DNA from: Sulfuritalea sp.
GTDB lineage: Bacteria; Pseudomonadota; Gammaproteobacteria; Burkholderiales; Rhodocyclaceae
Direction: 5' to 3'
Assembly: GCF_017302275.1 (NCBI RefSeq)
Contig: NZ_JAFLDR010000004.1
Span: forward strand, 92,545-156,544
Length of the DNA: 64,000 nt
Part shown: positions 12,451 through 62,107 of the stretch, in pieces
How the letters are laid out: each line of letters starts with the position of its first letter
Position numbering within the stretch: position 1 is the stretch's first letter
Position numbers and translations under genes: made by a program
Notes under the pieces: model-generated
Database searches by the model: none
Seen by the model: only the letters and a program-made list of their open reading frames with translations
Told to the model about the DNA's origin: nothing

Positions 12451-12472
12451 AGTCGGCGCTGGCGCAACGGCG
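12451..12472 (+). repeat. Dispersed 22-bp repeat, copy A (exact, intergenic)
   Basis: AGTCGGCGCTGGCG, two free bases, then ACGGCG. It lies in the 41-base gap between the hydratase and the ACP-FAAL gene, ending 9 bases before the latter's ATG. Bases 12446-12464 form a 19-base exact match to 34013-34031 inside hpt. Confidence 0.75.
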
Positions 12473-12481
12473 ATTGAGGGG

Positions 12482-15274
12482 ATGACGCAGTCGCCATCCG
12501 CTGATCCGGCATCGAGCCTGCTCGCGCTGGTCGACGGGCTTGTCGCCGAGTTGAGGCCGGGTGCGCGCGCGATGGCCCGGCTGGACAGCCGGTTGGACAG
12601 GGACCTGGGGCTGGACAGCCTGGCCCGGGTCGAGTTGCTGGCGCGCATCGAAGCCACATTCGGCATCCGCTTGGGCGAGGCCCTGCTCGGCAGCGCCGAG
12701 ACGCCGCGCGACCTGCTCGCCGCCATCGTCGGCGGTGGCGAGGTCGGGGCCGATGACCGCCCACACGAGCGCCGTGCGGCGCTGGATTCGAGCCATACGG
12801 ATGTTCCGGACCAGGCGGCAACCCTGGTCGAGGTTCTGCTTTGGCATGCGCGGCAACATCCGGCGCGGCCGCATGTCCTGTTCCAGCGCGGCCCGACGGA
12901 AATCGTGACGCTGACCTACGATGATCTGCTGGCCACCGCGCGCCGGCTTGCTGCCGGCTTGCGCGACCGCGGCGTGCGGCCTGGGGATTTCGTCGCGGTG
13001 ATGCTGCCGACCGGGCTGGAGTTCTTCCACTCCTTCTACGGCATCCTGCTCGCGGGCGCCGTACCGGTGCCGATCTACCCGCCGACGCGGCCGGGCCAGA
13101 TCGAGGATCACCTGCGACGCCAGGCCGGGATCCTGAAAAACTGCGAAGCGGTCGCGCTCGTGAGCTTCGATGCCGCGCGCATGGTGGCCCACATACTTTC
13201 CAGCCTGGTGCCCAGCCTGCGCACGGTGACCACGGCGGAAGACCTTTGCCGGGCGGGCGCCGACGGGGTAGGGCAGCTTGACCATCCCGGCACGCCCGGG
13301 GAGATCGCCTTCCTCCAATACACGTCGGGTTCGACCGGCAGCCCCAAGGGCGTGACGCTCGATCACCGCAACCTGCTGGCCAACATCCGGGCCTGGGGCG
13401 AGGCCGTCGCCTTGACCCCGGCCGACGTGGTGGTCAGCTGGCTGCCGCTGTACCACGACATGGGCCTGATCGGCGCCTGGCTGGGCAGCCTGTATCACGC
13501 CTGCCCGTTGGTGTTGATGTCGCCGCTGGATTTCCTCGCGCGCCCCGAACGCTGGCTGTGGGCGATCCACGAGCATCGCGGTACCGTAACCGCCGCACCC
13601 AACTTCGCTTTCGAACTGTGCCTGCGCCATCTCGACCCGCAGCGACTGCAGGGCCTGGACCTGGCTTCCTGGCGCTACGCAGCGAACGGTGCCGAACCGG
13701 TGGCGGCCGATACGCTGGCCCGCTTTGCCGCGGCCTTTCGTCCTTACGGCTTTCGCGGCCAGGCGCTGGCGCCGGTTTATGGTCTCGCCGAATGTTCGGT
13801 CGGGCTCGCCGTCTCGCCGCCGGGTCGCGGCCCGCTGATCGACCGGGTGCAGCGTGAGGCATTGGCCCTGGGCGAGGCACTCCCGGCGGCGAACGATGAC
13901 GCGGAGGCGTTGCAGATCGTGGCCTGTGGCCGGCCACTGCCCCGCCACCAGGTACGCATCGTTGACGCTGAAGGCCGCGAATTGCCGCCACGCCGCGTCG
14001 GTCGCCTGGAATTCCGTGGCCCCTCGGCGACGCGCGGCTACTACCGCAATGCGGAGGCCACCGCCTTGCTCATGCGCGATGGCTGGCTGGATTCCGGTGA
14101 CCTGGCATACCTTGCCGATGGCGACATATATATCGCCGGCCGCCTCAAGGACATGATCATCCGCGGCGGGCGCAACCTCTACCCCTACGAGTTGGAAGAC
14201 GCCGTCGGCGGCCTGCCCGGCGTGCGCCGCGGCTGCGTCGCCGTGTTCGGTGCCAAGGTGTCGGGGCTGGGGACAGAGAAACTGGTGGTGGTGGCCGAAA
14301 GCCGATTGACGGATGCCGCGGCAAGACAGGATCTGGTCCGGCGCATCGATGCATTGGCGGTGGATCTGCTCGGCGCGCCGCCGGACGAAGTGGTGCTGGC
14401 GGCGCCCAACTCCGTACTCAAGACCTCCAGCGGCAAGATCCGGCGCGCGGCCACGCGGGATGCGTATTGCGGCGATGGCTTCGGTCATCGTCCGCGGGCT
14501 CCGTGGCGACAGTTGCTGCGCCTGGCGGTGGCCGGAGCCTGGCGCCGCCTGGACAACTTCGGCGCGATGCTGTACGGCGTTTATGCATGGGGCATTCTCG
14601 GCGCGTTGGTGGTGCCGTTTGCCGCCATCGCACTCCTGGTACCCGGCCTTGGCTGGCGCTGGCGCTGCTGCGCTGGCCTGGTGCGGACCGCTTTGCGCCT
14701 GTGCGGCATCCCGCTACAGGTGGATGGACTGGAGCGCCTGCTGCCCGGCCCCCAGGTTTTTGTCGCCAACCACGCCAGCTACATCGATGGTTTGATCGTG
14801 ATCGCGGCGCTGCCGTTCCCCGTCGCCTTCGTCGCCAAGGCCGAATTGGCCAGCCACCCGCTGGCGGGCCGACTCCTGCGCCGCTTTGGCGTGGAGTTCG
14901 TCCAGCGTTTTGACGTTCGCCAGGGGGTGGATGACGTGCGTCACCTGGCCGTGCTTGCCGCCACGAGGCCCTTGTTCTTCTTTGCCGAAGGAACCTTCAC
15001 GCGGAGGTCCGGGCTGCGAACATTCCGGCTCGGCGCGTTCCAGATTGCCGTGCAGAACGGCCTGAGCGTCACGCCGGTCGCTCTCGCGGGTACCCGTGAT
15101 GTCCTGCGCGACGAGTCCTGGCTGCCGAAGCGAAGTGGCGTCCGTGTCAGCATCGGTGAAGCTGTCGCCGTCCAAGGCGATGGCTGGGCCGCCGCGCTGC
15201 GCACGCGTGATGCGGCACGAGCGGTGATCCTCAGGGAATGCGGCGAACCGGATCTCGGTGGCGATGAGGCGTGA
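12482..15274 (+). CDS. ACP-fatty acyl-AMP ligase-PlsC acyltransferase fusion
   Basis: A 930-residue three-domain protein. Residues about 10-85 are an acyl carrier domain with DLGLDSLARVELL, where Ser46 should carry phosphopantetheine. Residues about 110-680 are an adenylating enzyme with P-loop YTSGSTGSPKG (280-290) and the FAAL-typical SWLPLYHDMGLIG (319-331), plus a C-terminal SSGKIRR. Residues about 700-930 are a PlsC-type acyltransferase with NHASYID (His764, Asp769) and FFAEGTF (833-839). Two hydrophobic stretches near 695-735 could tether it to the membrane. Inferred job: activate a fatty acid as acyl-AMP, load it on the built-in ACP, and transfer it to a glycerolipid-like acceptor. It starts at ATG 12482. 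Confidence 0.88.
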   Translation: MTQSPSADPASSLLALVDGLVAELRPGARAMARLDSRLDRDLGLDSLARVELLARIEATFGIRLGEALLGSAETPRDLLAAIVGGGEVGADDRPHERRAALDSSHTDVPDQAATLVEVLLWHARQHPARPHVLFQRGPTEIVTLTYDDLLATARRLAAGLRDRGVRPGDFVAVMLPTGLEFFHSFYGILLAGAVPVPIYPPTRPGQIEDHLRRQAGILKNCEAVALVSFDAARMVAHILSSLVPSLRTVTTAEDLCRAGADGVGQLDHPGTPGEIAFLQYTSGSTGSPKGVTLDHRNLLANIRAWGEAVALTPADVVVSWLPLYHDMGLIGAWLGSLYHACPLVLMSPLDFLARPERWLWAIHEHRGTVTAAPNFAFELCLRHLDPQRLQGLDLASWRYAANGAEPVAADTLARFAAAFRPYGFRGQALAPVYGLAECSVGLAVSPPGRGPLIDRVQREALALGEALPAANDDAEALQIVACGRPLPRHQVRIVDAEGRELPPRRVGRLEFRGPSATRGYYRNAEATALLMRDGWLDSGDLAYLADGDIYIAGRLKDMIIRGGRNLYPYELEDAVGGLPGVRRGCVAVFGAKVSGLGTEKLVVVAESRLTDAAARQDLVRRIDALAVDLLGAPPDEVVLAAPNSVLKTSSGKIRRAATRDAYCGDGFGHRPRAPWRQLLRLAVAGAWRRLDNFGAMLYGVYAWGILGALVVPFAAIALLVPGLGWRWRCCAGLVRTALRLCGIPLQVDGLERLLPGPQVFVANHASYIDGLIVIAALPFPVAFVAKAELASHPLAGRLLRRFGVEFVQRFDVRQGVDDVRHLAVLAATRPLFFFAEGTFTRRSGLRTFRLGAFQIAVQNGLSVTPVALAGTRDVLRDESWLPKRSGVRVSIGEAVAVQGDGWAAALRTRDAARAVILRECGEPDLGGDEA

Positions 15275-15310
15275 TGGCGGAGCATCGCAGCGGTGAGTCG
15301 GTGCGATGTT

Positions 15311-15622
15311 TCAGCAGCATGCGGCGGCGACACGATGCAGCTTTTCGATTACGACGAGCGCCTCTACCATGCTGTTGACCGGAATCATGGCTTCGCGGCC
15401 GCTGCCGAAGGCGCCACCAACGCAAGAGATCTTTGGTTCACAGCGAGTAGGCTCGACGAACTGGATGATGCCGAGGTTGATCCAACGCCGCTTGCCCGTT
15501 TCGTCAATCGGCACTTCGTGGACACAGAAGGCCGTGAAGCCGGGAATCACCGGCTGGGCGTAGCCCGTCGCCGTGCCGGCGGCTGTTTCACCTACCACCA
15601 GAAATGTCCGAAACAGGCTCAA
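15311..15622 (-). CDS. Small hypothetical protein on the reverse strand
   Basis: A 103-residue protein of unknown function. The start is inferred as TTG at 15622 because GGAGG stands about six bases before it on the reverse strand; the longer open frame to 15760 has no comparable signal. The C-terminal half (RRWINLGIIQFVEP, then a short strand, then IPVNSMVEALVVIEKL) alternates strand-turn-strand-helix and resembles short FlbD-like or host-like strand proteins that start with a residue-position phrase of the kind 'W-(I/V)-N'. This resemblance is weak. It is convergent with the ACP-FAAL gene and divergent from livG, alone on its strand. A forward frame over the same bases looks like a shadow. 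Confidence 0.5.
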   Translation of the reverse strand: MSLFRTFLVVGETAAGTATGYAQPVIPGFTAFCVHEVPIDETGKRRWINLGIIQFVEPTRCEPKISCVGGAFGSGREAMIPVNSMVEALVVIEKLHRVAAACC

Positions 15623-15801
15623 GGGAGTCCTCCACCGCGAGCGCAGGATCGGCTCGCCGAAGGGCAACGCAGACTCGTTCGAAGGCTGGCGCCGTGGATG
15701 ATCCCACAGGCTTGCGCATTCGAGAGCGCCACCGCATAATCGACCGACACAACAATTCATGTGTCGCCGACCGGCGCACCCATCCCGACGACTGGCGCTT
15801 G

Positions 15802-16581
15802 ATGGCAGACGATTGCATTCTGGAGACGAAGGGTCTCGTCAAGGAATTTCGCGGTTTCGTGGCGGTCAATGGCGTAGACCTCAAGGTCAGGCGCGGGCAT
15901 ATCCATGCGCTGATCGGTCCCAATGGCGCAGGCAAGACCACCTGCTTCAACCTGCTGACCAAGTTCCTCGAACCGACACGCGGCAGTATACATTTCAACG
16001 GCGTCGACTTTACCCGCGATACTCCAGAGCGTATCGCGCGGCGCGGTATCGTGCGCTCCTTCCAGATCTCCGCCGTGTTTCCGCATCTCACCGTGCTGGA
16101 GAACGTGCGCATCGCATTGCAGCGCAATCTGGGCACCAGCTTCCATTTCTGGAAGTCCGATCGCAGCCTTGACCAGCTCAACGGCCGCGCCATGGAACTA
16201 CTGACCTCGGTCGGACTGGAAGCCCATGCCGGCATGGTGACAGTGGAGATGCCCTACGGCCGCAAGCGTGCGCTGGAAATCGCCACGACCCTGGCGCTCG
16301 ACCCGGAACTCATGCTTCTCGATGAACCCACCCAGGGCATGGGCCATGAAGACGTGCACCGGGTCATGGAGCTGATCAAGCAGGTGTCGGCCAACCGCAC
16401 CATCCTCATGGTGGAACACAACATGAAGGTGGTGGCCGGAATTTCCGACACGCTGACCGTGCTCGCGCGTGGCTCGGTGCTGGCCGAAGGGCCTTACGCC
16501 GAAGTGGCGGCCAATCCCCTGGTAATCGAGGCTTACATGGGTACCGAGGTCGCGGAACTGGCCTCGCCGGCGGGTCACTGA
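15802..16581 (+). CDS. livG: Branched-chain amino acid-type ABC transporter ATPase LivG
   Basis: A 259-residue ATPase of a HAAT-family uptake system. Walker A is GPNGAGKTT (near residue 39), followed by FNLLTKFLEPTRG. The signature-region equivalent is VEMPYGRKRALEIATTLA, and Walker B is LMLLDEPTQGMGHED. The ATG at 15802 gives the standard N-terminus; the open frame to 15604 runs over the reverse-strand gene start and has no ribosome-binding site. It overlaps livF as TGATG. With livF, the binding protein and two permeases it forms one complete transporter. Confidence 0.9.
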   Translation: MADDCILETKGLVKEFRGFVAVNGVDLKVRRGHIHALIGPNGAGKTTCFNLLTKFLEPTRGSIHFNGVDFTRDTPERIARRGIVRSFQISAVFPHLTVLENVRIALQRNLGTSFHFWKSDRSLDQLNGRAMELLTSVGLEAHAGMVTVEMPYGRKRALEIATTLALDPELMLLDEPTQGMGHEDVHRVMELIKQVSANRTILMVEHNMKVVAGISDTLTVLARGSVLAEGPYAEVAANPLVIEAYMGTEVAELASPAGH

Positions 16582-17288: not shown

Positions 17289-17328
17289 CGCTTCCGGCCC
17301 TGATCATTTTTTTCAAGGAGGAGACACC

Positions 17329-18558: not shown

Positions 18559-18586
18559 GCCGTCTGCCAATGCAGGGGATGTTCGC

Positions 18587-20968: not shown

Positions 20969-20971
20969 CGC

Positions 20972-22681: not shown

Positions 22682-22684
22682 GCC

Positions 22685-26230: not shown

Positions 26231-29200
26231 GTGCGTCTATACAAGCTGAAACTCTCGGGCTTCAAGTCCTTTGTCGAGCCCACCACGGTGCTTTTTCCGG
26301 GCCAGCTGGCCGGGGTCGTCGGTCCCAACGGTTGCGGCAAATCCAACATCATCGATGCCGTGCGCTGGGTGCTGGGCGAATCCAAGGCCTCGGAACTGCG
26401 CGGCGAGTCGATCCAGGACGTGATCTTCAAGGGATCGGGCAATCGCAAGGAAGTCTCCCGCGCCGCGGTCGAACTTCACTTCGACAATGCCGCGGGTCGC
26501 GCCGCCGGCCAGTGGAGCCAGTACGCCGAGATCACCGTCAAGCGCGTGCTCGACCGCGAGGGCAATTCCAGCTACTACATCAACAACCTGCACGTCCGTC
26601 GCCGCGACGTGATCGACCTCTTCCTCGGCACCGGCCTGGGGCCGCGAGCCTACGCCATCATCGGCCAGGGCATGATTTCGCGCATCGTCGAGGCCAAGCC
26701 CGAGGAACTGCGCTTCTTCCTCGAAGAGGCGGCCGGCGTCACCAAGTACAAGGAACGCCGCCGGGAAACCGAACATCGCCTGGAAGACGCCCGCGAGAAC
26801 ATCGCCCGCGTCGATGACATCCGCAACGAACTCAAGAAGCAGGTCGAGCACCTTCAGGCGCAGGCCGCCGTGGCACAGCAGTATCGCGGCCTGCACGAGG
26901 AGATGTCGCGCAAGCAGACCCTGCTCTGGCTGAAGAAACGCAATGACGCACGCAGCGACGGCCAGCGCCTGTCGCGCCAGGTCGAGGAAGCCGTCACCCG
27001 GGTCGAGGCCGAAACCGCGCAGTTGCGCGAAATCGAAGCACGCGTCGAGCACTCGCGCGAGAGCCACTATTCGGCGTCCGATGCGCTGCATGCCGCGCAG
27101 GCGGAAATGCATGCCGCGACCAACGAGGTCGGCCGGCTGGAAAGCGAATTGGGCCATCTGCGCGATTCACGCAGCCGGTTGGAAACGCGGCTGGCCCAAC
27201 TGGGTGCTGAACAAAGCCACTGGAGCGGCCAGCAGGCGACCCTGGCGGAAGATTCGGCGCGCTGGAACGCGCTTCTGGATAACTCCCGCAATCGTGTCGC
27301 CGCCGCTGCCGCGCGCCACGAGGAGGCTGCCGCGCGCCTGCCGGAGTGCGAGGACGCGGTGCAAAGTGCCGGCGGCGATGTCACCGAGGCCCGTCGCGCC
27401 CTGAGCGAGGCCGAGCAGGCCTTGCGCCTGGCCGAGGCCGATCGCGGTCATGCCCAGCGCGCACTTGAAAATCTTGCCCAGCGGCGCGGCCGGCTGGAAC
27501 AGGACAAGCAAGCGCTCGGCGCGCCCGACCCTGCGCAACTGGCCGCGTCGCGCGAGGCCGAGGCACGCGGCGCCGAAGCGCTCGACGTGGCGCAGGAACG
27601 CCTGACCGAACTGCAATCCACCGTGCCTGGAGCGGAAGCCGCGCTGCGCGCGGCACGCGAATCCCTGCAGGCGGCGCATCGCGGCCTGACCGAATCCCGT
27701 GCCCGCCACGATGCCTTGGCCCAGCTGCAGGCCAAGGTGGCCAAGGGCGGGGAGATCGGTGACTGGCTCAAGGCGCGCGGGCTCGCCGAAGCGAAACCCC
27801 TGTGGCAGTCGATCCAGGTCGAGGCGGGCTGGGAAACCGCGGTCGAGGCGGTGTTGCGCGAGCGCTTTTCGGCGCTGGCCGCCGATCCCGAAACGCTGCG
27901 TGCGGCGCTGCAATCGCCTCCACCGGCGATTCTGACCCTGGCCGTGACTTCCGCATTGGCGGCAGCAAGTGCGCCGATGGAAAGCCTGCGCGCCAAGGTG
28001 CGCTGCGAGGATGCGCGCTGGAACGGCGTGCTCGACGAATGGCTGGCCGAAGTGTCGGTCAGCGAGGATCTCGCGGCCGGCTTGCCGCTGGCAACTGGTT
28101 GCCGCGTTTCGCGCGCGGGCCATTTGCTGACGCCGGCCGGCCTCACGCTGTATGTCCCCGATGCCAAGACCCACGGTGTCATCGAACGCCAGCGCGAGAT
28201 CGACGATCTCGCCGCGCAACTCGACGCGCGTGCCGAAGCGGAAGATATCGCGCGCGCGCGCCAGCAGGGCGCGGAACAGGAACTGGCCGAGTTGCAGGTC
28301 CAACTGACGAGCGCCCGGCGTGCCCTGCAGGAAGCCCAGCAGGCCCTGCACGCTGCCCAGGTCGAGGCGCTGAAGCTGGCCCAGGCCCAGGCGCGCTACG
28401 AGGAACGCAGCGCGCAGATCGACCGCGACCTGGCAGAGTTGCAGCGGCAGGAGGAAATCGAGAAGGCGCGCATCGGGCGCGCCGACGACGAGGGAGAACT
28501 GCAGCGCGAGCGCCTCAGCGCCGTGCGCGAGCGCGTCGAGCGCGCCATCGACCTGCACCGGCAGAGGGACATGGCGCTGCGCGACGCGCGGGCGGTCGAG
28601 ACCCAGCTCGGGCGCGAGTTGCAGGAAGCCGGGTTTTCCGAGCGTGAATGCCTCTCCAAACTCGATGACAACGGCCGCGCGGCGGCGACGGCCAGCAGCC
28701 AGTTGCAGCGCATCGACGCCGAAACCGCGGCGGCGCGCACCGAGGTCGCCGGCATCAGCGACACCGTGCTGCAGGAACAACTGCATGCGGCGCTGGATGC
28801 GCGCGGCATCAAAGAGTCGGCGCTGGCGGAACGGCGCAACGTGCTCGAAGCGGCGGCCGGCGAACTGCGCAACCTCGACGAACAGCGCCTGCGGCTGGAG
28901 CAGGGCCTGACGCCGCTGCGCGACAAGATCAGCGACTTGCGGCTCAAGGCCCAGGCGGCGCAGCTCAACGAGGAGCAGTACCGCGAGCGCCTCGCCGAAG
29001 TACGCGTCGTCAGCGAGGCGGACGAAGCCCCCTTCCTCGGCGAACTTTCCGCGGGTGGCGCCGATAGGCTCAAGGACAGCGTCCTGCAGGGCGACATCGC
29101 GCGGCTCACCGCCGAAATCGAAACGTTGGGCCCGGTCAATCTTGCGGCGCTGGAGGAACTCGCCACGGCGTCCGAGCGCAAGAGCTTCCTCGATGCGCAG

Positions 29201-33960: not shown

Positions 33961-34502
33961 ATCCGCAGGAAGCGCGCCGCATCCTTGACGAAGCGGACCC
34001 GATCTGTTCGGCTGAAGAGTCGGCGCTGGCGGTACGGCGGGTGGCGGCCGAAATCGGCCAGCGCCTCGGAAAAGCCAATCCGCTGGTGCTGTCGGTGATG
34101 GGCGGGGCGGTGGTGTTTACCGGCCAGCTGCTGCCACAACTGGATTTCCCGCTCGACTTCGATTACCTGCATGTCACGCGTTATGGCAACGTCACCACCG
34201 GCGGCGAACTGGAATGGATAGTCAAGCCGCGCTCGGCCGTCGCCGGGCGCGTCGTGCTGGTGGTCGATGACATCCTCGACGAAGGCGTGACGATGGCTGA
34301 AGTCGCCACGCACCTGAGAGCACTGGGTGCGCAGGAGGTCCTGTGCGCCGTGTTCGCTGACAAGGACCTAGGTCGGGCCAAGCCAATCGTCGCCGACTTC
34401 ATCGGTGTCCACGTGCCCAATCGTTACGTGTTCGGCTACGGCATGGACGTCAAGGGCGCCTGGCGCAATCTGCCCGCCGTGTATGCGGTGAAGGGCCTGT
34501 AA
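33957..34502 (+). CDS. hpt: Hypoxanthine-guanine phosphoribosyltransferase
   Basis: A 181-residue purine-salvage enzyme. The PRPP-binding loop [15 protein letters not shown] is near residue 98, with the flexible loop [10 protein letters not shown]. The C-terminal [21 protein letters not shown] is characteristic of the hypoxanthine-type enzymes. The start overlaps the galU stop by four bases. Residues 21-28, ESALAVRR, are encoded by a copy of the dispersed repeat. Confidence 0.92.
34018..34039 (+). repeat. Dispersed 22-bp repeat, copy C (exact, inside hpt)
   Basis: Exact consensus match, read as E-S-A-L-A-V-R-R near the Hpt N-terminus. Its 19-base left part is identical with the intergenic copy A. 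Confidence 0.65.
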
Positions 34503-36363: not shown

Positions 36364-37455
36364 TCAGGAATTGGCGGGTTGGGGAATGACGCTGCGTAGG
36401 GCCGCGTCGGCCTCGCGAATCATGGTCTCGGTGGTCGCCCAGTCGACGCAGGCGTCGGTGACCGAACAGCCGTATTTCAGTTGCCCATGCAAGGCCGGGT
36501 CGTCGGGAATCGGCTGGTTGCCGGCTTCGATGAAGCTCTCGATCATCAGGCCGACGATGGAGCGATGTCCGCTCCTGCGCTGGTCGCGGATCTGGTTGAT
36601 GCAGTCATGCATCACCAGCGGTTGCAGGTCCGGCTTCTTGTAGCTGTTGGCATGCGAGCAATCGACCACGATGTTGTGCGGCAAGTTCGCCTTGGCCAGT
36701 GCATCTTCGGCCAGCGCGACGCTGACCGTGTCGTAGTTGGGCCGGCCGCCGCCGCCGCGCAGCACCAGGTGGCCGTAGCGGTTGCCGGCGGTGCGTACCA
36801 CGCAGGAACGGCCCTGCATGTTGATGCCGAGGAAGCTGTGCGGGCTGCCGGCCGAAATGATCGCATTCACCGCGGCGTCGAGCGAGCCGTCGGTGCCGTT
36901 CTTGAAGCCGACCGGCGTTGAAAGTCCCGAGGACATTTCGCGATGGGTTTGCGACTCGGAGGTGCGCGCGCCGATCGCGGTCCACGCGATCAGGTCACCC
37001 AGGTACTGCGGCGCGATCGGGTCGAGCGCCTCGGTGCCGGCCGGCAGCCCGAGCTCATTCACCGCCAGCAGGAATTCGCGCGCCTTGTGCAGTCCTTCCT
37101 CGATGTGGAAGGAATCGTCCATGCGCGGATCGTTGATGTAACCCTTCCAGCCGGTGGCGGTACGCGGCTTTTCGAAATACACCCGCATCACCAGCTGCAG
37201 GGTGCCGGCCACTTCGTCGGCGAGTTTCTTCAGACGCCGCGCGTAATCGATGCCGGCGACCGGGTCGTGGATCGAACAGGGGCCGACCACGACGAAGACG
37301 CGAGGGTCGCTGCCGTCGAGGATGCCTTGCAGGGCGCGCCGTCCCGCCAGCACCGACTCGGCGGCGGCATCGGACAGAGGCAGGCGGGCATGGACTTCCT
37401 CCGGCGTGGGCAGGAGGTCGAAGGCTTCGATGTTGAGGTTTTCGGTTTGTTGCAT
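36364..37455 (-). CDS. aroG: 3-Deoxy-7-phosphoheptulonate synthase (class I)
   Basis: The 363-residue first enzyme of the shikimate pathway (DAHP synthase, AroF/G/H type). VVGPCSIHDPVAGIDYA (near residue 57), VMRVYFEKPRTATGWKGYINDPRMD, and IVDCSHANSYK (phosphoenolpyruvate/metal site) are diagnostic. The length and N-terminal extension suit a regulated form; which aromatic amino acid inhibits it cannot be seen. ATG at 37455. It is followed by DUF1015 in a short operon, and the toxin gene ends 6 bases upstream of its start. Confidence 0.94.
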   Translation of the reverse strand: MQQTENLNIEAFDLLPTPEEVHARLPLSDAAAESVLAGRRALQGILDGSDPRVFVVVGPCSIHDPVAGIDYARRLKKLADEVAGTLQLVMRVYFEKPRTATGWKGYINDPRMDDSFHIEEGLHKAREFLLAVNELGLPAGTEALDPIAPQYLGDLIAWTAIGARTSESQTHREMSSGLSTPVGFKNGTDGSLDAAVNAIISAGSPHSFLGINMQGRSCVVRTAGNRYGHLVLRGGGGRPNYDTVSVALAEDALAKANLPHNIVVDCSHANSYKKPDLQPLVMHDCINQIRDQRRSGHRSIVGLMIESFIEAGNQPIPDDPALHGQLKYGCSVTDACVDWATTETMIREADAALRSVIPQPANS

Positions 37456-38225: not shown

Positions 38226-38247
38226 AGTCGTCGCTGGCGGGACGGCG
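38226..38247 (+). repeat. Dispersed 22-bp repeat, copy D (one mismatch, intergenic)
   Basis: AGTCGTCGCTGGCG, GG, ACGGCG: one change (G to T) from consensus. Confidence 0.7.
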
Positions 38248-38308
38248 GCTGTTCGGCCGAAGCGGTCCGTCCATTGCATCCCCGTCGGCGGCGGCACTCG
38301 GCCAGGAA

Positions 38309-38395
38309 CCGTCATTCCGGGGCCGCGAAGCGGAACCCGGAGTCCAGCATCCTTGCTCGAACGCCGCTGGATTCCCGCGTTCGCGGGAATGACGG
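38309..38395. repeat. 87-bp element with terminal inverted repeats (REP/MITE-like)
   Basis: It is bounded by CCGTCATTCC and GGAATGACGG, perfect 10-base inverted repeats. Inside the right end is the hairpin ATTCCCGCG-TT-CGCGGGAAT (38371-38390). The sequence style, with GAACCCGGAGTCCAGCATCC between, is that of intergenic palindromic repeats widespread in proteobacteria. Only this copy is in the window. Confidence 0.75.
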
Positions 38396-38576
38396 CAAAG
38401 GGCACGAAGCGGAAATTCTCATCCGTTAGCAACAATGTCGGCTTCGGCCGAGAGCCTGCCCGTCGTCCACGTCACCATCCCGGAGCCGCTTCTCCTGAGT
38501 TCATCAATCGTCGTCACACCAGCGCCATCCGCAAAGGACACTGCCTCCGGCTTCGCCGTAGACATAGTTCGGCGGA
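38396..38576. other. Intergenic stretch with no supported gene
   Basis: Together with 38115-38225 and 38248-38308 this completes the 500-base gap between the antitoxin and mfd. Apart from the repeats listed I see no coding frame with a start signal, no terminator and no tRNA. Confidence 0.6.
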
Positions 38577-42174: not shown

Positions 42175-42196
42175 TGCCGTGCCGCCAGCGCCGACT
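42175..42196 (-). repeat. Dispersed 22-bp repeat, copy E (one mismatch, upstream of mfd)
   Basis: On the reverse strand AGTCGGCGCTGGCG, GC, ACGGCA. Together with two further bases it holds the 16-mer AAAGTCGGCGCTGGCG shared with copies F, G and H. Confidence 0.75.
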
Positions 42197-46724: not shown

Positions 46725-47773
46725 GCGGCAGTCCGCGGCGCGTCTGCCGTGTCCGCTGTACCCGCTGCGCCACTGGGCTGGAGCAGGTACAAGGGTTGGT
46801 CGAGCACGCGAATGTCGATGGGCGAGCGCATGCGTGTCACCTCGCCGTCGAACGCCACCACGACCTTCTTGCGGCCCGGTGCCAGCGTGGGCTTCACCAG
46901 CATGCGGTGGAACTCGAAGCTCTCGACGCCGGCGGCTTCTCCCAGCCTTCCCATCGCGCCATGCAGCATCAGCCAGATCATCGACAGCGTGCCGATGGGA
47001 CGCAGCATCAGCGCCGCCATGCTGCCGTCGCCGGGAGTGCCGGCCAGGGTATCTTCCGGCTCGGCGCCGAACTGCTGCAGTTGCAGCCGGTTGTTGCCGA
47101 CGAAGAGCGTCAAAGTCTGCACGTCGCGAACCGTGTCACCCATCTCGATGTGCAGACGCAGCCGGCGCTGCGCGCGCAGCAGGGTCGCACAGGCCGCCAC
47201 GAACGCTACCCAGCGGCTGCGGCCGAAGCGGGCTTTGTAGGCCTCGCGGTCCTGCAGGAGTTCCGGATAGATGCCCAGGCTGGCGTTGACCAGGAAAACC
47301 CGGTCGTTGATGGCCGCCACCTGCACCGGCAGCGGGTGCGCATCCAGCAGCAGCCGTGCCGCAGCCGCCGGATCGGTGGGGATGCCGTGCGTCCTGGCAA
47401 AGTAGTTGAACGTGCCGTAGGGGATGACGCCCATGGCGCAACCGGCGCCATGCGCGGCCTGGGCCACCGTGTTCAGGCTGCCGTCGCCGCCGACGGCGAT
47501 CACCGCCGTAGCGCGCGCCACCGCGGCTGCTGCGGCCTCGGCGGCCACCTGCGGCAGATCACCGGGCCCGCAAACCAGCAGTTCGCCCTTGCGCCCGCGC
47601 GCTGCCAGGGCCGCTTCGATCACCCCACGCTTGGCGTCGATGACCTGCGCTCCGGCAGAAGCGTTGATCACGAACAGGAGGGCCGCCCCGGGGTCGAGAC
47701 AAGGGACCGCCAGCGCCGACTTTTTGCGCCCGGGCCGGCCTTCCCCGGATTCTTCTTGCCCGGTTTGCTCCAT
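46721..47773 (-). CDS. Diacylglycerol kinase-family (YegS/DagK-like) protein
   Basis: A 350-residue lipid kinase homologue. The glycine-rich nucleotide-binding motif VIAVGGDGSLNTVAQA is near residue 95, with YGTFNYFARTHGIP following. The C-terminal ligand-binding half ends near VAFDGEVTRM. The first 30 residues are an unusual hydrophilic extension that includes repeat copy F, read as KKSALAV. ATG 47773 directly follows the stop codon of a decayed frame. It pairs with a metallophosphoesterase, suggesting lipid turnover, but this is inference. Confidence 0.87.
   Translation of the reverse strand: MEQTGQEESGEGRPGRKKSALAVPCLDPGAALLFVINASAGAQVIDAKRGVIEAALAARGRKGELLVCGPGDLPQVAAEAAAAAVARATAVIAVGGDGSLNTVAQAAHGAGCAMGVIPYGTFNYFARTHGIPTDPAAAARLLLDAHPLPVQVAAINDRVFLVNASLGIYPELLQDREAYKARFGRSRWVAFVAACATLLRAQRRLRLHIEMGDTVRDVQTLTLFVGNNRLQLQQFGAEPEDTLAGTPGDGSMAALMLRPIGTLSMIWLMLHGAMGRLGEAAGVESFEFHRMLVKPTLAPGRKKVVVAFDGEVTRMRSPIDIRVLDQPLYLLQPSGAAGTADTADAPRTAA
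47708..47723 (-). repeat. Dispersed repeat, copy F (16-base part only, in dagK-like gene)
   Basis: Reverse strand AAAGTCGGCGCTGGCG is exact, but the right part of the consensus (ACGGCG) is missing. It lies in the N-terminal extension of the kinase. Confidence 0.55.
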
Positions 47774-49414: not shown

Positions 49415-50853
49415 GTCACCGCTCCCGGCAACTGCATCAATTCGACGCCGCGCAGGCCGAGCAACACGCTGGCCGCCGCGAGCGCGAACGCGCTCCACTC
49501 CAAGGTGCGCGGTACGGGCGCGAGCGTCGCGCTCGCCGGCGCCATGAGGAAGGCCTGGCGCAGCACGCGCAAGACATAGACGGCCGCCAGCAGGCCGCCG
49601 GCCAGCACCACTGCGGCGATGATCCAGTGGCCCTGTGCCAGCGCCGCCTCGATGATCTGCCATTTGGCGAGAAAGCCCGAGGACGGCGGCAGCCCCATCA
49701 GCGTCATGCCGGCAAGGCCGAAGGCGAACATGGTCACCGGCAGGCGCTCCACCGCGCCGGCCAGACCGGCCACCGTATCCTGCCCGGTGGCCTTGATCAG
49801 CACGCCGGCAGCGGCGAACATGCCGGCCTTGGCCAGGCCGTGGGCAAATACCTGCATCACGCCGGCATGAATCGCGCCAGGGGCCGCCAGCAAGGGAAAG
49901 ATCAGGAACAGGTAGCCGAGTTGCGCCACGGTCGAATAGGCGATCAGGCGTTTCAGTTTCACGGCGCGAATTGCCTGCCAGGACCCCCAGAAGATTGCCG
50001 CGGCGCCGAGCAGTGCCATCAGCCAGGCGAAGGCGGGCAAGACGGCTTGCAGCGGCCCCAGCCAGAGCCGCAGGATCAGGTAGAACGAGGCCTTCACCAC
50101 CAGTGCCGAGAGCAGCGCCGAGACAGGTGCCGGCGCGCCACCGTGCGCCGGCGGCAACCAGAAGTGGAAGGGGAACAGCGCCGTCTTGAGCATCAGGCCG
50201 GCCACCATCAGTCCGCCGGCAATCCACGCCAGACGCGGCGCGTCGTCGGTCACCAGCGGCAACAGGGTAGCGATCGACACCGTGCCGTAGGCGCCGTAGA
50301 TCAGCGCGACGCCGAGCAGGTAGGCGCCCGATCCCACGAGCGTGGCGAAGAGATAGCGCAAGGCGGCGGCCACCTGCTGCGCGCCGCCGCCCGCCGCGAC
50401 CAGGCCCACGGCAGCGAGTCCGACCAGTTCGAGGGTGACATAGAGGTTGAACAAATCGGCGGAAACGAACAAGGCGTTCAAGCCGGCGATCAGGAAGCCC
50501 GTCAGCGGCCAGAACCAGGTGCCGGCAGGATCCCCCGGCTTGAAGTAACTGCGCGCGTAGATGGCCAGTGGCAGGGCCACGGCCTGTGTCAATAACAGCA
50601 TGGCGGCCGAGAGGCCATCGACGGCGAGGTCGATTCCCAGGGGCGCCCCCCAGCCGCCAACAACATGAGCCGCCGTCCCGCCAGCGCCGACTTTCTGAGC
50701 AAGGTCGAGGGCCAGCCAACATTGCGTTGCCAGACCGGCGATGGCCGGCCACGCGCCGCGCCCCGGCCCGAGCACGAAGGCCAGCGTCGCCCAGGCCAGC
50801 GGCAGCAGGATCAGCCAGGCCAGGGGATCGAACAGGGGCTCACTCATCGACAT
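49411..50853 (-). CDS. mrpD: Cation antiporter subunit MrpD/MbhH-like
   Basis: A 480-residue proton-conducting antiporter subunit. GWGAPLGIDLAVDGLSA (near residue 66-83) is typical of MrpD/MnhD. The central block LKTALFPFHFWLPPAHGGAPAPVSALLSALVVKA contains the conserved Lys and His residues of the proton path. Copy G of the dispersed repeat is read as KVGAGGTA (residues 54-61) in the loop just before the first motif. Start 50853 (overlapping mrpC by 14) or the second ATG at 50847. Confidence 0.9.
   Translation of the reverse strand: MSMSEPLFDPLAWLILLPLAWATLAFVLGPGRGAWPAIAGLATQCWLALDLAQKVGAGGTAAHVVGGWGAPLGIDLAVDGLSAAMLLLTQAVALPLAIYARSYFKPGDPAGTWFWPLTGFLIAGLNALFVSADLFNLYVTLELVGLAAVGLVAAGGGAQQVAAALRYLFATLVGSGAYLLGVALIYGAYGTVSIATLLPLVTDDAPRLAWIAGGLMVAGLMLKTALFPFHFWLPPAHGGAPAPVSALLSALVVKASFYLILRLWLGPLQAVLPAFAWLMALLGAAAIFWGSWQAIRAVKLKRLIAYSTVAQLGYLFLIFPLLAAPGAIHAGVMQVFAHGLAKAGMFAAAGVLIKATGQDTVAGLAGAVERLPVTMFAFGLAGMTLMGLPPSSGFLAKWQIIEAALAQGHWIIAAVVLAGGLLAAVYVLRVLRQAFLMAPASATLAPVPRTLEWSAFALAAASVLLGLRGVELMQLPGAVT
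50671..50692 (-). repeat. Dispersed 22-bp repeat, copy G (exact, inside mrpD)
   Basis: Exact consensus on the reverse strand with GG as free bases, extended left by AA (16-mer shared with E, F, H). It encodes K-V-G-A-G-G-T-A in a loop. Confidence 0.75.
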
Positions 50854-54208: not shown

Positions 54209-54253
54209 TCAAAGCGGTGAGCAATGCGCCGTGGGAGAAAGGATGCCAGTGGC

Positions 54254-55771: not shown

Positions 55772-56166
55772 GCGCTTCGAGTGGCGCTGCCTTGCCAGCG
55801 CTCGCGCAGGATCGGCAGGCGATGGCAGAGCGGACGCAACAACGCATAGGCGGCGAGGCCGAGGGCGTCCACGGCAAGGTCGAGCATCGAGAAATGGCGG
55901 AAGGGCAGGAAGTACTGCACGATTTCGATCAGCAGTCCGTAGCCGAGCAGTGCGCCGGCCTTGGCGAGGGTGAATTCCTCGCGCGGGAAGGAAAAATCGA
56001 GCAGCGCGGCCAGGACCAGGAAGGCTGCCATGTGGTTGAGCTTGTCGCTGACCAGATGCGACAGCTTGTGCTCCGCAGGTGTCACCGCGAGGTAGCTGAC
56101 GACGACCAGCGTCACCGCGAACGCGATGCGAAACGCCGGAACGTAACGCAGAAAGCGGTCGCTCAT
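55768..56166 (-). CDS. VanZ-like family membrane protein
   Basis: A 132-residue protein with about four hydrophobic segments. Conserved acids in SDKLNHMAAFLVLA and LLIEIVQYFLPFRHFSMLDLAVDALG are the VanZ-family pattern. Its role in this setting is not known. It follows amrS by 18 bases and overlaps the acetyltransferase gene. Confidence 0.78.
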   Translation of the reverse strand: MSDRFLRYVPAFRIAFAVTLVVVSYLAVTPAEHKLSHLVSDKLNHMAAFLVLAALLDFSFPREEFTLAKAGALLGYGLLIEIVQYFLPFRHFSMLDLAVDALGLAAYALLRPLCHRLPILRERWQGSATRSA

Positions 56167-56184
56167 GGCTCGGCCTGGCCCCGG

Positions 56185-57257
<1,073 letters not shown>

Positions 57258-57282
<25 letters not shown>

Positions 57283-58664
57283 TTCTGCACCTCGTAGCGT
57301 TGCAGCCTGACGTCGGGCGACCAGTAGTCGGCGGGCAGTCCGGCCTTCTGTTTCAGGTGGGCCATGAACTGGCGCGGATCGGGCAACTGTTCCCAGACCT
57401 GGGGCAGGAAGGTGCTGCGGCCGAGTTTGCCACCCTCGCCGGCGCTGAAGATCACGCCATCGACATTCGGCCGCAACTGGCGCAGGGCGTCGGCTTCGTC
57501 GCTGAACGCCATCGGCTGCGGCGCGGTCAGCAGCGAAACCTCGACCCGGGTGCGCGTAAATTCGGCCAGGGTCAGCGGCGGAAAGCGCGGGTCGCGGAAC
57601 GCGGCGGCGAGGGCATTGGCGCGCACGTCCTGGTCGAGCGGACGATGGGCTTCGAGCGAGCCGATGCAGCCGCGCAAAAGCCCATTCTGGGTCAGCGTGA
57701 CGAAGGTCGCACCCGGTTGGTCCAGCGCCGGATGCGCCGGTTCCGCCCGGGTGGCCTGTCCGAGTTTGGCGGCGATGGCGTTGCGGGCGCGCACCAGCAG
57801 TGCCGGGCCGGGATCGGCGGCGGCGGTCGGCGGCGCTTCGTAGAGGGCGAAGGAGGCATAGCCGACCACGCGGCCCTTGTCGCCGGCCGTGTCGCCGGAG
57901 TTGCACTGGGCGATGCGCTCGATGCGCAGTCCGCGTTTGCGTGCGACCGCCAGCAGGCCGTTGATCGGCAGCGCGCCGCAGGCCTGCTCGAAGCTGGTCA
58001 GTTGCTCCAGCGCGAGGATGCGCCCGGCCGTGGCCTGGTCGATCTTGCGTGCCTCGGCGTAGGCGTGGAAATGCGACAGGTCGGAGCTGATCACGATCAG
58101 GGTTTCCGGCCCGCCCCAGAGCCGGTCGATGACCTGGGCGACTTCGGCGGCACCGGTCTGGCCAACCGCGAGCGGCACCAGTTTGAAATCGCCGAGCACG
58201 GTCTGCAGGAATGGCAGTTGCACTTCCAGCGAATGCTCCTGGGCATGGGCGGCGTCGCTGGACACGATCTGCGGCAGGTCGGCCAGGCCGTCGAGCGCCG
58301 CGCGGTCGACGGCGATCCGCCCAAGCGGCGTGGCGAAGGCCTGCGCCGTCGGCGCGGCAAGCCCGCGCACCGAAACGCGGTGGCAGGGACCGAGCAGCAC
58401 CACGCGACGGATGCGGCCGGCCAGCGCGGCAAGCAGGGCGTAAGCCTTGCCGGCGGTGCCGCCGGAATAGATGTAGCCGGCATGCGGCACGATGAGGGCC
58501 TTGAGCAGGCCGTCGCCAGAAGTTATGCGAAGCGGTATCCCCTTGTGGGACGGCGCCGGCGACACGGCGAGACAAACTGCCAATTCGTCCCGCAGCGCAT
58601 CGGGATCGCCGGGATAGAAACTGCCGGCCACGGCCGGCGGGCGTTGCGTGGTGGCGGTAGTCAT
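57258..58664 (-). CDS. Memo-AMMECR1 fusion protein (AmmeMemoRadiSam B and A in one chain)
   Basis: A 468-residue two-domain protein. Residues 1 to about 275 are a Memo domain (AGSFYPGDPDALRDEL, PHAGYIYSGG, SSDLSHFHAY, and the C-terminal VVGYASFALYE), like class III ring-opening dioxygenases. Residues about 285-468 are AMMECR1 (GATFVTLTQNGLLRGCIGSLEAHRPLDQDV). In many genomes these are separate; fused forms are known and strengthen the view that they act together. ATG 58664 is 2 bases after the MgtC-like stop. Confidence 0.9.
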
Positions 58665-58666
58665 GG

Positions 58667-59923
58667 TCACTCCATCAGCAGGAGGCCGCCTACCAGTCCG
58701 GCGGCAATGGCGGCAAAACCCGGCAAGGTGAAGCGAGCGAGCGCCACACCGCCGATGATGGCCACCAGCCCGGTCTTGAAGGCGAGGTTGGAAAGCGTTG
58801 CCAGTGTTATCGCAGTAATAGTTTGGGCCTCGCTCAGCTTGTTCAAGCTGAACATGCGCAAGGAGGACAGCGTGATCGCATCGACGTCGGTCAGGCCCGA
58901 GGCCAGCGCCAGCAAATAGAGGCCGCGATTGCCGGCGATGTCCTGCAGCCAGGCCGAGAGCACCAGCACCAGGGCGTAGAGGGCGCCGAAGGTCAAAGCG
59001 GTCTTGATTTCGGTCGGATTGGCGACCTGCGGCAGGGGCAGCGAGTCGCCGCCCTGCAACTGGCGCCAGCCCCACAGCGTGGCGCCGACGCCCAGCACCA
59101 GGCCAGCGCCCAGCACCGCGACCAGCGAAGGCAGGATCTCCGGTGCGACGATGAAGGAAACCACCGACAGGCGCACCAGGACCACGATGTTGGCGAGCAG
59201 GATGACCACCATCGCGGTGCGCGCCAGTTCGACATGCGCGCGCGCGTGGCGGGCGAAGATCATGGTGGTCGCGGTCGATGAAACCATGCCACCGAAGATT
59301 CCGATCAACGCCGCGCCGTGGCGCGCGCCGACCACGCGCAGGGCGGCGTAGCCGGCCAGCGAAACGCCGGAGATCAGCACCACCATCCACCAGATGTTGC
59401 GCGGGTTGAGCGCGTCGTAGGGGCCGAAGTCGCGGTCGGGCAGGATGGGCAGGATCACCAGCGCCAGCACGCCGAATTGCAGGATCGACAACAGGTCGAC
59501 GTGCGTCAGGCTTTTCGAGATGCCGTGCAGTTGCGCCTTGAAGTAGAGCAGCACGGTCGTCGCGATCGCCAGCATCACCGCGACGGAAGCATGGCCGAAC
59601 CAGACCATGGCGCCCAGCGCATAGCAGACCATCAGCGCGACCACCGAGGTGGTGCCGGGATCGCCGGTGTCGAGCGGATCGGAGACATGGGCGGCGATCA
59701 TCATGGCGGCCACCGCCAACAGGCCGGCGGCGATGATCCAGCCGCTGTCGGTGATCTGCGCCAGAAGGGCGCTGACGCAGCCGAGCAGGCCGACCAGGGC
59801 GAAGGTGCGCAAACCGGCCTTGAGGTCGGACTGGCGCTCGCGCTCCAGGCCGATCAGCAGGCCGATGCCGATGCTGGTGGCAAAGGCCTGCAGGCTTTCG
59901 TACTCGGTTCCGCCGGCGAACAT
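58667..59923 (-). CDS. MgtC/SapB-type membrane protein with DUF4010
   Basis: A 418-residue polytopic protein. The first part has the MgtC N-terminal motif SIGIGLLIGLERERQ and the LRTFALVGLLGCVSALL helix. The second part (about 170-415) is DUF4010, with eight or so hydrophobic segments. Function is unknown; MgtC proteins affect Mg2+ and ATP-synthase homeostasis. ATG 59923 opens right before the MgtC motif. It leads the operon with Memo-AMMECR1, amrS, VanZ and GNAT. Confidence 0.85.
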   Translation of the reverse strand: MFAGGTEYESLQAFATSIGIGLLIGLERERQSDLKAGLRTFALVGLLGCVSALLAQITDSGWIIAAGLLAVAAMMIAAHVSDPLDTGDPGTTSVVALMVCYALGAMVWFGHASVAVMLAIATTVLLYFKAQLHGISKSLTHVDLLSILQFGVLALVILPILPDRDFGPYDALNPRNIWWMVVLISGVSLAGYAALRVVGARHGAALIGIFGGMVSSTATTMIFARHARAHVELARTAMVVILLANIVVLVRLSVVSFIVAPEILPSLVAVLGAGLVLGVGATLWGWRQLQGGDSLPLPQVANPTEIKTALTFGALYALVLVLSAWLQDIAGNRGLYLLALASGLTDVDAITLSSLRMFSLNKLSEAQTITAITLATLSNLAFKTGLVAIIGGVALARFTLPGFAAIAAGLVGGLLLME

Positions 59924-59957
59924 GGGATTTCCCGCGCAATGTCCTATAGGCTGATTA

Positions 59958-59963
59958 TAGAAT
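59958..59963 (+). promoter_or_regulatory. Candidate -10 box placed for a leaderless ispD transcript
   Basis: TAGAAT exactly six bases before the ispD ATG (59970), as at ppx. No ribosome-binding site is visible. Confidence 0.35.
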
Positions 59964-59969
59964 CCGGCC

Positions 59970-60677
59970 ATGAGATATCACGCACTGGTTCCCGCTGCCG
60001 GTTCCGGCTCACGCATGGGCGGGCAGGACGGCGCTGCGCTGCCCAAGCAATACCTGCCGCTGGCCGGGCGGCCGATGATCTGGCACGCGCTGGCGACCTT
60101 GTGCGCGACGCCGGCGATTGCCAGCGTTTTCGTCGTGCTGGCGCCCGAGGACATTCATTGGCCTGCACCGATGATGGAATCGCTGGGACCCAAACTGCGC
60201 GTCCTGCGCTGCGGCGGCGAAACCCGTGCCGCGAGCGTTACCGGAGGCTTGCGCGCGATGGCCTCCGAACCGGGCGCCAGCGGCGACGACTGGGTGCTGG
60301 TGCACGACGCGGCACGGCCCTGCCTGACCGTCGCGCTGGTCGAGAAGCTGATCGCCGAAGTCGGCAACGACGATGCCGGCGGCCTGCTGGCGGTGCCGGT
60401 CGCCGATACCCTCAAACGCGGCGACGAACGCGGCTACGTGCTGCAGACCGTGCCGCGCGAAGGATTGTGGCAGGCACAGACGCCGCAGATGTTCCGCCAC
60501 CGGCTGCTGCTCGATGCGCTCGATTTCGCGCCCAGCGTCACCGACGACGCCAGCGCCATCGAGACGCTGGGCCTGTCGCCGCGCCTGGTGGCGGCCGACG
60601 CCAGCAACCTCAAGGTGACATGGCCGCGCGACCTGCAACTGGCGGAAAGGATTTTGCAGAACCGGGGGCCGGAATGA
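59970..60677 (+). CDS. ispD: 2-C-methyl-D-erythritol 4-phosphate cytidylyltransferase
   Basis: A 235-residue enzyme of the MEP isoprenoid pathway transferring CMP to MEP. The N-terminal CTP-binding loop is [12 protein letters not shown], with the catalytic [13 protein letters not shown], then [11 protein letters not shown] and, at the end, the [11 protein letters not shown] segment. The ATG has a -10-like TAGAAT six bases before it. It overlaps the thioredoxin-like gene as ATGA and diverges from the MgtC-like gene across 46 bases. Confidence 0.94.
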
Positions 60678-61012
60678 ACGACGCGACGGAACCGACCCGC
60701 GAGGAAATCGACGCGATTGCGGAACCCCTGGTCGTCGAATTCGGCACCTCGTGGTGCGGCCATTGCGCGCGCGCCCAGTCGCTGATCGCTGAAGCATTGG
60801 CAGCGCATCCCGGACTGCGGCACCTGAAGGTCGAGGATGGGCCTGGCCGTCGCCTGGGGCGCAGCTTCCGCGTCAAGCTGTGGCCGACCCTGGTATTCCT
60901 GCGCCAGGGCGTCGAAGTGGCGCGCCTGGTGCGTCCGGACGATGTGGCCACGATCGAAGGTGCGCTGGCGCGGATCGACGCGGCGACCGATCCGCGCCCG
61001 TTACCGAATTGA
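60674..61012 (+). CDS. Thioredoxin-like protein
   Basis: A 112-residue single-domain redox protein, cytoplasmic since no signal peptide is present. The active site is WCGHC (Cys28, Cys31) and the cis-Pro loop is LWPTLVFL. The CGHC centre is a more oxidising one than thioredoxin CGPC. It sits, overlapping on its left, between ispD and ispF, two genes that are usually adjacent. Its relation to the MEP pathway, whose IspG and IspH are iron-sulfur enzymes, is open. Confidence 0.85.
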
Positions 61013-61066
61013 TGGTTGGAATTCGGCTATGCTGATCGCCTGCAACTGCCACCGGGATTCTCCGTG

Positions 61067-61555
61067 ATGAACTCTCCATTTCGCATCGGCCAAGGCTACG
61101 ACGTCCACGCCCTGACGCCCGGCCGCGAGCTGATCCTGGGCGGGGTGCACATCCCGCATCCGCAAGGCCTTTTGGGGCATTCGGATGCCGACGTGCTGCT
61201 GCACGCCATCACCGACGCCGTCCTCGGCGCCGCCGGCATGGGCGACATCGGGCGCATGTTTCCCGACAGCGACGCGCAATGGGAAGGCGCCGACAGTCGG
61301 CGCTTGCTGCGTGGTGCCGTTGCGGCGGTGAATGCCGCCGGCTGGCAGGTGGGCAATATCGACGCCACCATCATCGCCCAGGCGCCGCGCATCGCGCCGC
61401 ATGTCGCCGCGATGCGCGCCAACATCGCCGCCGACCTCGGCATCGAGGTCGATGCCGTCAACATCAAGGGCAAGACCACCGAACGCCTCGGCTTCACCGG
61501 TCGCGGCGAAGGCATCGCCGCCGAAGCCGTGGCCCTGTTGCTGCGCCAGGAATAG
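61067..61555 (+). CDS. ispF: 2-C-methyl-D-erythritol 2,4-cyclodiphosphate synthase
   Basis: A 162-residue MEP-pathway enzyme, a trimer with zinc. [12 protein letters not shown] gives the zinc ligands Asp and His, [20 protein letters not shown] the substrate loop and third ligand, and [18 protein letters not shown] the CMP site. ATG 61067 matches family starts; the open frame to 61016 would add an unconserved extension. It is followed by thpR after 6 bases. Confidence 0.95.
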
Positions 61556-61561
61556 CCGCAC

Positions 61562-62107
61562 TTGGGCGAGGCGCGCCCGCACCGGGTCTTCTTCGCGCTG
61601 TGGCCGGACGCCGCGGCGGTGAGCCGCCTGTCGGCGCTGGCGCAGGAAATGGCCACTGCCGGCGGACGTGCCATGCACCCGGCGACGCTGCACATGACTC
61701 TCGCCTTTGTCGGCTCCGTCACTACGGTGCAACTTGAGGCACTCGAAGGCCTGGCCGCCGGGATACATGGTGAAGCCTTCGACCTCAGCCTCGACCACCT
61801 CGGCTTCTTTCCCCGTGGCGGCATCGCCTGGGCCGGTTGCCGGCGGACGCCGTCGCGCCAGCGCCGACTTTCCGGGGAATTGCACGCGGCGCTGCAGGCC
61901 GCCGGCTTCGTCGTCGATCCGCGGGCGGGGCAGGTGCCGCATGTCACGCTGGCGCGCCGCGTGCGGTCGCCAGAGCTGCCGCCGCTCGATCCGCCGATCG
62001 GCTGGCGGGTGAGCGAGTTCGCACTGGTCGAAAGCCAACTGCATCCGTCGGCCGCAACCTACCGGACCCTGGCGCGCTTTTCCCTCGCCGAAGCGCGCGC
62101 CGATTGA
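61562..62107 (+). CDS. thpR: RNA 2',3'-cyclic phosphodiesterase ThpR
   Basis: A 181-residue 2H phosphoesterase. The two catalytic HXTX motifs are HMTLAFV (His44) and HVTLARR (His127). The start is TTG 61562, six bases after ispF. Residues about 96-103 (SRQRRLSG) are encoded across copy H of the dispersed repeat, in the segment that links the two lobes. Confidence 0.88.
   Translation: MGEARPHRVFFALWPDAAAVSRLSALAQEMATAGGRAMHPATLHMTLAFVGSVTTVQLEALEGLAAGIHGEAFDLSLDHLGFFPRGGIAWAGCRRTPSRQRRLSGELHAALQAAGFVVDPRAGQVPHVTLARRVRSPELPPLDPPIGWRVSEFALVESQLHPSAATYRTLARFSLAEARAD
61848..61869 (-). repeat. Dispersed 22-bp repeat, copy H (exact, inside thpR)
   Basis: Exact consensus on the reverse strand, antisense to thpR, with the AAAGTC left extension shared by E, F and G. 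Confidence 0.75.

Follow-up and report, generated by a model that had tools for sequence, protein, structure and literature searches.

A 2025 paper (PMC12616744) describes DNA uptake sequences as known only in the Neisseriaceae and the Pasteurellaceae. Here, we analyzed a dispersed repeat in a 64,000-nucleotide stretch of a Sulfuritalea sp. genome (contig NZ_JAFLDR010000004.1, positions 92,545 to 156,544), which we call the window. An earlier note had recognized the repeat as a 22-bp sequence present in eight places, and all eight were recovered with the strands and mismatch grades that it gave. Comparison with related genomes suggests that the repeat is a motif of about 26 bp that resembles a DNA uptake sequence and is probably a self tag of part of the Rhodocyclaceae.

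The DNA uptake sequences (DUS) of the Neisseriaceae have copy numbers per genome in the hundreds or above and are common in genes and permissive regions (PMC3630211). They are also described as continuous, up to about 13 nt long, and divided into dialects by clade (PMC12616744). Copy number, placement in genes and permissive regions, and clade dialects are common to DUS, whose receptor is ComP, and to the Rhodocyclaceae motif. However, the two sequences are unrelated, and the Rhodocyclaceae motif is about 26 bp long with an open dinucleotide and rarely occurs as inverted pairs. For the uptake signal sequence (USS) of Haemophilus influenzae, 65% of copies are in coding regions, and an origin by substitution was shown with a similar gap test by Redfield and colleagues (PMC1626085). 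An even spacing has also been reported (cited in PMC1939737), as has a core with further conserved stretches of up to 32 nt (PMC12616744). The Rhodocyclaceae motif is likewise mostly coding (189 of 286 copies in the complete relative described below), but its sequence is unrelated to the USS and is GC-rich, whereas the flanking stretches of the USS are AT-rich.

Two other kinds of dispersed sequence also have to be considered. Chi and KOPS (FtsK orienting polar sequences) are short, asymmetric words dispersed over the chromosome, with a strand bias that follows replication, but the Rhodocyclaceae motif has no such bias in the complete relative. Repetitive extragenic palindromic (REP) sequences and miniature inverted-repeat transposable elements (MITEs) resemble the motif in their many near-identical copies and in the palindromic inserts that some of its long forms contain. 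However, the differences in the short motif from one species to another are substitutions, most of its copies are inside genes, and its dinucleotide varies freely.

The motif is far more abundant than expected by chance

The genome that contains the window (G000; 4.41 Mb in 88 contigs) has 684 copies within two mismatches (349 + 335), compared with 3 matches (1 + 2) for the reversed pattern. The complete relative, G002, is a single 3.8-Mb contig, from which 80 evenly spaced 20-kb samples (1.6 Mb) were taken. These samples had 129, 97, 60, and 22 matches with 0, 1, 2, and 3 mismatches, respectively, whereas the reversed control had 0, 0, 0, and 5, and beyond three mismatches the classes merged into the background. 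The earlier note had proposed codon-preserving shuffles as well as a genome-wide count, and both revealed an excess of the motif. Four shuffles each gave 6 to 9 matches in G002, versus 286 observed, and 0 to 3 in a 464-kb sample of G000, versus 44 observed. The G000 sample is poor in copies, because the genome mean would give about 72. In the window itself, allowing three mismatches gave ten matches, not counting the 16-base part at 47708, whereas 100 dinucleotide shuffles gave 0.05 on average.

We derived the consensus from 285 G002 copies with flanks, which had been preselected within two mismatches. It is RARAGTCGGCGCTGGCGRNACGGCGA, about 26 bp. The 20 specified positions are 80 to 100% fixed, and conservation ends abruptly on both sides, with flanks that are not conserved. 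Two central bases vary, and the bases adjoining them are 94 to 100% fixed. The columns of the logo sum to about 36 bits, a value inflated because the copies were chosen by similarity, versus the approximately 14 bits needed to mark some 700 sites. Folding of the motif and of a long form of it was no better than that of shuffles (z scores of -0.48, 1.35, -1.12, and -1.35). No RNA families were found at the gathering threshold in the window or in three other stretches described below (L180, L308, and L309).

Copies have no strand polarity and occur in a few reading frames

In G002, 93 of the 286 copies were intergenic, 189 were in genes, and 4 were at gene edges, with noncoding DNA accounting for 12.5% of the sample (the coding fraction from the gene caller was 0.875 in G002 and 0.78 in G000). 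Of the in-gene copies, 185 were in four of the six frame and sense classes, and 4 were in the other two. They encode VGAGxTA (83 copies), AVxPAPT (51), SALAxRR (30), or RRxASAD (21), peptides made mostly of small residues, and 115 copies were sense versus 74 antisense. The same four classes contained 29 of the 30 in-gene copies in the G000 sample. One explanation for these frames is that a protein-level constraint or a codon-usage effect yields the word. Codon-preserving shuffles do still give 6 to 9 matches in 1.6 Mb, and therefore, common peptide frames raise the background slightly. However, this background compares with 286 copies, 93 of which are not in genes at all; the remainder encode four different peptides in both senses, and third codon positions are conserved beyond the flanks (see below). 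The probability that such an effect explains the motif is negligible, and a shared protein motif, which the earlier note had argued could not explain all copies, was rejected.

The cumulative GC skew of G002 reaches its single main maximum near 1.85 Mb and is lowest near the contig end. The strand of the motif was independent of replichore (68 plus and 78 minus copies versus 66 plus and 74 minus; p = 1.0), and adjacent copies were on the same strand in 111 cases and on opposite strands in 99. Genes in G002 favor the leading strand (453 plus and 321 minus in one half and 312 plus and 419 minus in the other). These data bear on a replication or recombination signal of the KOPS or Chi kind, which had been raised because copies in the window appeared to switch strand between 38 and 42 kb. 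The switch holds for the eight copies listed at that time. However, it is not clean, because an additional copy at 37337 is on the minus strand left of 38.3 kb and a match at 58548 is on the plus strand right of 42.1 kb. It is best read as chance. The lack of replichore strand bias refutes a polar signal for the complete relative, and we consider this explanation highly improbable.

Copies are spread throughout the G002 chromosome, with 27 to 40 per octant and the fewest around the terminus. Close neighbors are rarer than in random placements. There were 28 neighbor pairs less than 1 kb apart, compared with 44.9 (standard deviation, 5.7) at random, and 54 pairs less than 2 kb apart, compared with 80.4 at random. 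In both cases, none of 500 placements gave a value as low. Only 4 of the 80 samples were free of copies. Two of these adjoin each other, are low in GC (L308 and L309; 1.90 to 1.97 Mb), and have TraN, TraU, TraK, TraD-like, and HipA genes, which identify them as a conjugative element. The motif was absent from both of the samples (2 of 2) that cover this one element. Conjugative elements have reportedly been found from DUS distribution, as the title of one study (PMC7371117) has it. The third copy-free sample has genes for a Tle1-like effector, a DNase II-like protein, and transporters, and the fourth has nusA, infB, and pnp.

Presence and absence at orthologous sites differ by substitution

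Each of the 31 genus genomes has a match to the block from 26.2 to 38.6 kb of the window. In pairwise comparisons of motif sites, which are not independent of one another, the motif was kept in 1339, decayed (3 to 4 mismatches) in 78, and absent from 97. The motif-absent pairs were ungapped in 86 cases, all from three sites (the SMC gene, the DAHP synthase gene, and one further gene site with weak copies). The other 11 were gapped, and none of them had a clean insertion of the motif. Copies also occupy the same codons of orthologous genes. At these few sites, the alignments indicate that presence and absence differ by substitution rather than by insertion. A looser comparison of 91 alignments had 62 that kept the motif without a gap, 4 that lacked it without a gap, and 25 that were gapped, some of which led to the long form described below.

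With a modest control, 51 of 66 motif copies were retained within 2 of the 20 positions, compared with 628 of 1867 control windows. Third codon positions were identical to those of G000 at a frequency of 0.944 in the motif versus 0.666 in the flanks (p = 2.4e-7; 21 motif and 290 flank positions in three genes). The best solved homologues of the DAHP synthase, the phosphoribosyltransferase, and the antiporter-like protein align without gaps through the motif-encoded residues and have other residues there. In this check, the site was covered in three of four window genes, with one alignment each, and the long form at 58521 was outside its alignment. The antiporter homologue has a two-residue gap some ten residues upstream of the motif site.

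The earlier note had also suggested a small mobile sequence. A miniature mobile element or transposition relic, with copies spread by insertion, would account for hundreds of near-identical copies, and insert-bearing long forms do exist. However, the central dinucleotide is variable, the flanks are not conserved, no clean motif insertion was found at orthologous empty sites, and the protein alignments are ungapped. Furthermore, copies are in tolerated frames and are spread over six genera with clade spellings. The shape of the consensus, the orthologous-site alignments, and the solved-homologue alignments led us to discard a mobile short repeat of 22 to 26 bp, and a miniature element of any such kind is improbable.

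The motif has different spellings in different clades

All 31 genus genomes searched (including G000) carry the motif, with 46 to 732 copies each. Among 297 evenly drawn genomes of the family, 13 belong to the genus and 284 do not. Of these 284, 25 genomes in five genera had more than 100 copies, five had 14 to 40, and 254 had at most 10. None of 40 genomes from other families of the order had more than 5. When the pattern was made slightly degenerate and compared with named contigs, at least 117 stretches matched. Among the 80 listed, the titles were mostly Sulfuritalea, Sulfurisoma, or Rhodocyclaceae/Rhodocyclales, and there were also other metagenome-assembled genomes and scattered matches elsewhere.

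Some clades spell the motif differently. In G048, 8 of 10 listed copies end in ACGGCA and none is exact. Of the 40 copies listed for G052, 7 are exact, and 9 combine the spelling AGTCAGCGCCGGCG with ACGGCG. The listed copies in G114 are nearly all AGTCGACGC, with GGGG replacing GGCG in many. The flanks of 30 loci have the same RAA-like left end; of the six groups of loci, the first two could be assigned to a genome. Clade-specific spellings are also seen for DNA uptake sequences; those described here come from listed copies rather than from an unbiased consensus for each clade. At positions compared across genera, 3 of 7 alignments keep the motif.

G017, a member of the genus, has 1, 12, 33, and 49 matches at 0, 1, 2, and 3 mismatches (reversed control, 5 + 3 = 8), and it looks like a decaying lineage. 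G309 has no copies, though it is in a carrier genus. In two low-copy family genomes, the few copies cluster. Five of the six in G151 are within 41 kb and four of the seven in G124 are within 11.3 kb, which perhaps reflects DNA from carriers or a binning error. Clustered copies were also seen in another low-copy family genome, G125.

Alternatively, an intracellular protein that organizes or repairs the chromosome might bind the motif, and ordinary selection would maintain its several hundred sites. Even spacing, conservation at orthologous sites and third positions, and absence from the conjugative element would also follow from this. However, the copies have no polarity and are not concentrated in one part of the chromosome. 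The logo of approximately 36 bits, inflated as it is by the choice of copies, compares with the approximately 14 bits that such sites would need, and the clustered copies in G151 and G124 look like DNA received from carriers. No candidate protein came to light, although no search for one was made. We regard an intracellular binding site as rather unlikely.

Among contigs filed as viral, the degenerate pattern matched at least 120 stretches. L180, on one such contig, has a 316-bp unit repeated in tandem about 4.7 times (positions 629 to 2240), with five motif copies within and directly after this array. The boundaries GTTAGGC and TAACGT are reminiscent of integron attC sites.

Some copies contain a precise insert

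In the long form of the motif, AGT is followed by TATGCGNAGCGGTATCC... and then by a motif-like right part. With up to two mismatches to a 21-base left pattern, ten long forms were found among the G002 samples, and G000 had three. In all of the DNA compared, 14 distinct places were within 3 mismatches of 20. At four loci (five alignments), another species has the plain motif and is missing exactly the 24 or 27 bp between AGT and CGG. Two of these loci are clean, and two have a second gap nearby. In contrast to the short motif, the inserts that some copies contain do have a precise presence/absence difference. The left pattern occurred in 30 of 31 genus genomes and in none of 30 others (6 from the family and 24 from the order, drawn from outside the other high-copy genera). 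The inserted stretch may be a small mobile element, or the long form may be the presumed tag with a spacer.

Longer inserts were also seen, with a palindromic middle between TATGC and GCGGTATCC (L287, L304, L321, L322, and L324). The palindromic middle in L304 is CCTCTGGCGACGCCAGAGG.

Copies in the window

Five copies in the window are exact. One is intergenic (12451 to 12472, plus strand), and two on the same strand are within the SMC gene in the SALAxRR frame (28815 to 28836) and within a phosphoribosyltransferase gene (34018 to 34039). Among the other genus genomes with an alignment, 22 of 23 kept the SMC copy and all 23 kept the phosphoribosyltransferase copy. The other two are on the minus strand, one within an antiporter/NADH dehydrogenase subunit gene in the VGAGxTA frame (50671 to 50692) and one antisense in a LigT/2'-5' RNA ligase-like gene (61848 to 61869). 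Of the one-mismatch copies, those at 38226 to 38247 (plus) and 42175 to 42196 (minus) are intergenic, and our gene calls agree with the earlier note that these two and the copy at 12451 are outside genes. The third, at 37337 to 37358 (minus), is in the DAHP synthase gene, and in 21 genomes it was kept in 16, decayed in 3, and absent from 2. It had not been listed before, and neither had a weak copy with two mismatches within a gene for an AMP-binding enzyme (10177 to 10198, plus). The partial copy of 16 bases is at 47708 to 47723 (minus). Finally, a long form in which an insert of 27 bp separates AGT from the motif's right part is antisense in a Memo/AMMECR1 gene (58521 to 58569, plus), and its right part is the previously missed three-mismatch match at 58548 (plus).

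The window also has an inverted-repeat element, CGTCATTCC...GGAATGACGG, at 38297 to 38416. Copies elsewhere in the genome are 97% and 99% identical, and similar elements occur in several relatives. It resembles dRS3-like repeats.

Competence genes and a possible role in DNA uptake

An uptake signal was another of the options in the earlier note, and most of the sequence-level tests described above are consistent with it. The motif has the abundance far above chance, the occurrence on both strands without polarity, the difference by substitution, and the tolerated placement of a DNA uptake sequence. In such a system, competence type IV pili would carry a surface receptor with a preference for motif-bearing DNA, a specific pilin such as ComP or, as has been proposed, ComN. 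Fragments with the motif would be taken up more often and then recombined into the chromosome, so that the word would accumulate and persist wherever genes tolerate it. The receptor, its effect on uptake, and the drive are inferred here. The sequence data are consistent with a combination of biased uptake and recombination, a mechanism that others demonstrated for DUS and USS.

We also searched for competence genes. ComEC was found in 48 of 48 genomes, and a ComP_DUS-family pilin was found in 35 of 37, carriers and non-carriers alike (it is missing from G114 and G134). Each of 17 genomes has 11 to 17 N_methyl pilins, and 16 of 17 have DprA above the cut-off. As a route to the receptor, the presence of the ComP_DUS family, ComEC, N_methyl pilins, or DprA failed to separate carriers from non-carriers.

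Several observations weigh against a role in uptake. The receptor was not found through the presence of competence or pilin genes. The decaying G017 and the zero-copy G309 likewise have ComEC, DprA, and 11 to 17 pilin-like genes, and because the competence genes are equal in non-carriers and decayed cases, they do not discriminate. The strong carrier G005 has a DprA match only below the cut-off, and G114, a carrier with its own spelling, is without a ComP_DUS-family pilin. No description of natural competence in Sulfuritalea was found in the literature examined. The motif has 20 fixed positions, which is longer than the 9- to 12-nt cores of known uptake sequences, and close inverted pairs are rare, with two at 27 to 28 bp among the 286 copies in G002, although such pairs are a common rather than a defining property of uptake sequences. 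The excess of intergenic copies is small in the G000 sample (12 of 44 versus 21.9% noncoding DNA, a share that the gene caller probably overestimated). Finally, copy number in G002 tracks GC content (rho = 0.48). This correlation is partly expected for a GC-rich word, and it weakens absence from the conjugative element as evidence.

Even with these points, we favor a motif like a DNA uptake sequence. In the open-access literature, most subscription journals aside, we found no report of the motif, of an insert sequence, or of uptake sequences in Rhodocycl- taxa. A more far-reaching proposal, which is tentative and might well be wrong, is that the Rhodocyclaceae have a third, independently evolved uptake-tag system. 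Its 26-bp split motif would have dialects across at least six genera. In the genus of the window, it would be accompanied by a tiny palindrome-bearing element of 24 to 27 bp or longer that inserts precisely into the tag (AGT^CGG), either as a parasite of the self-recognition code or as a spacer variant within it.

If the motif is an uptake tag, it would be a third case, in environmental bacteria, and an independent test of why uptake tags evolve. The set of spellings is offered for a search for the receptor by covariation. Natural competence would be predicted in Sulfuritalea and its relatives, and the motif would mark donor DNA in the genomes of those relatives.

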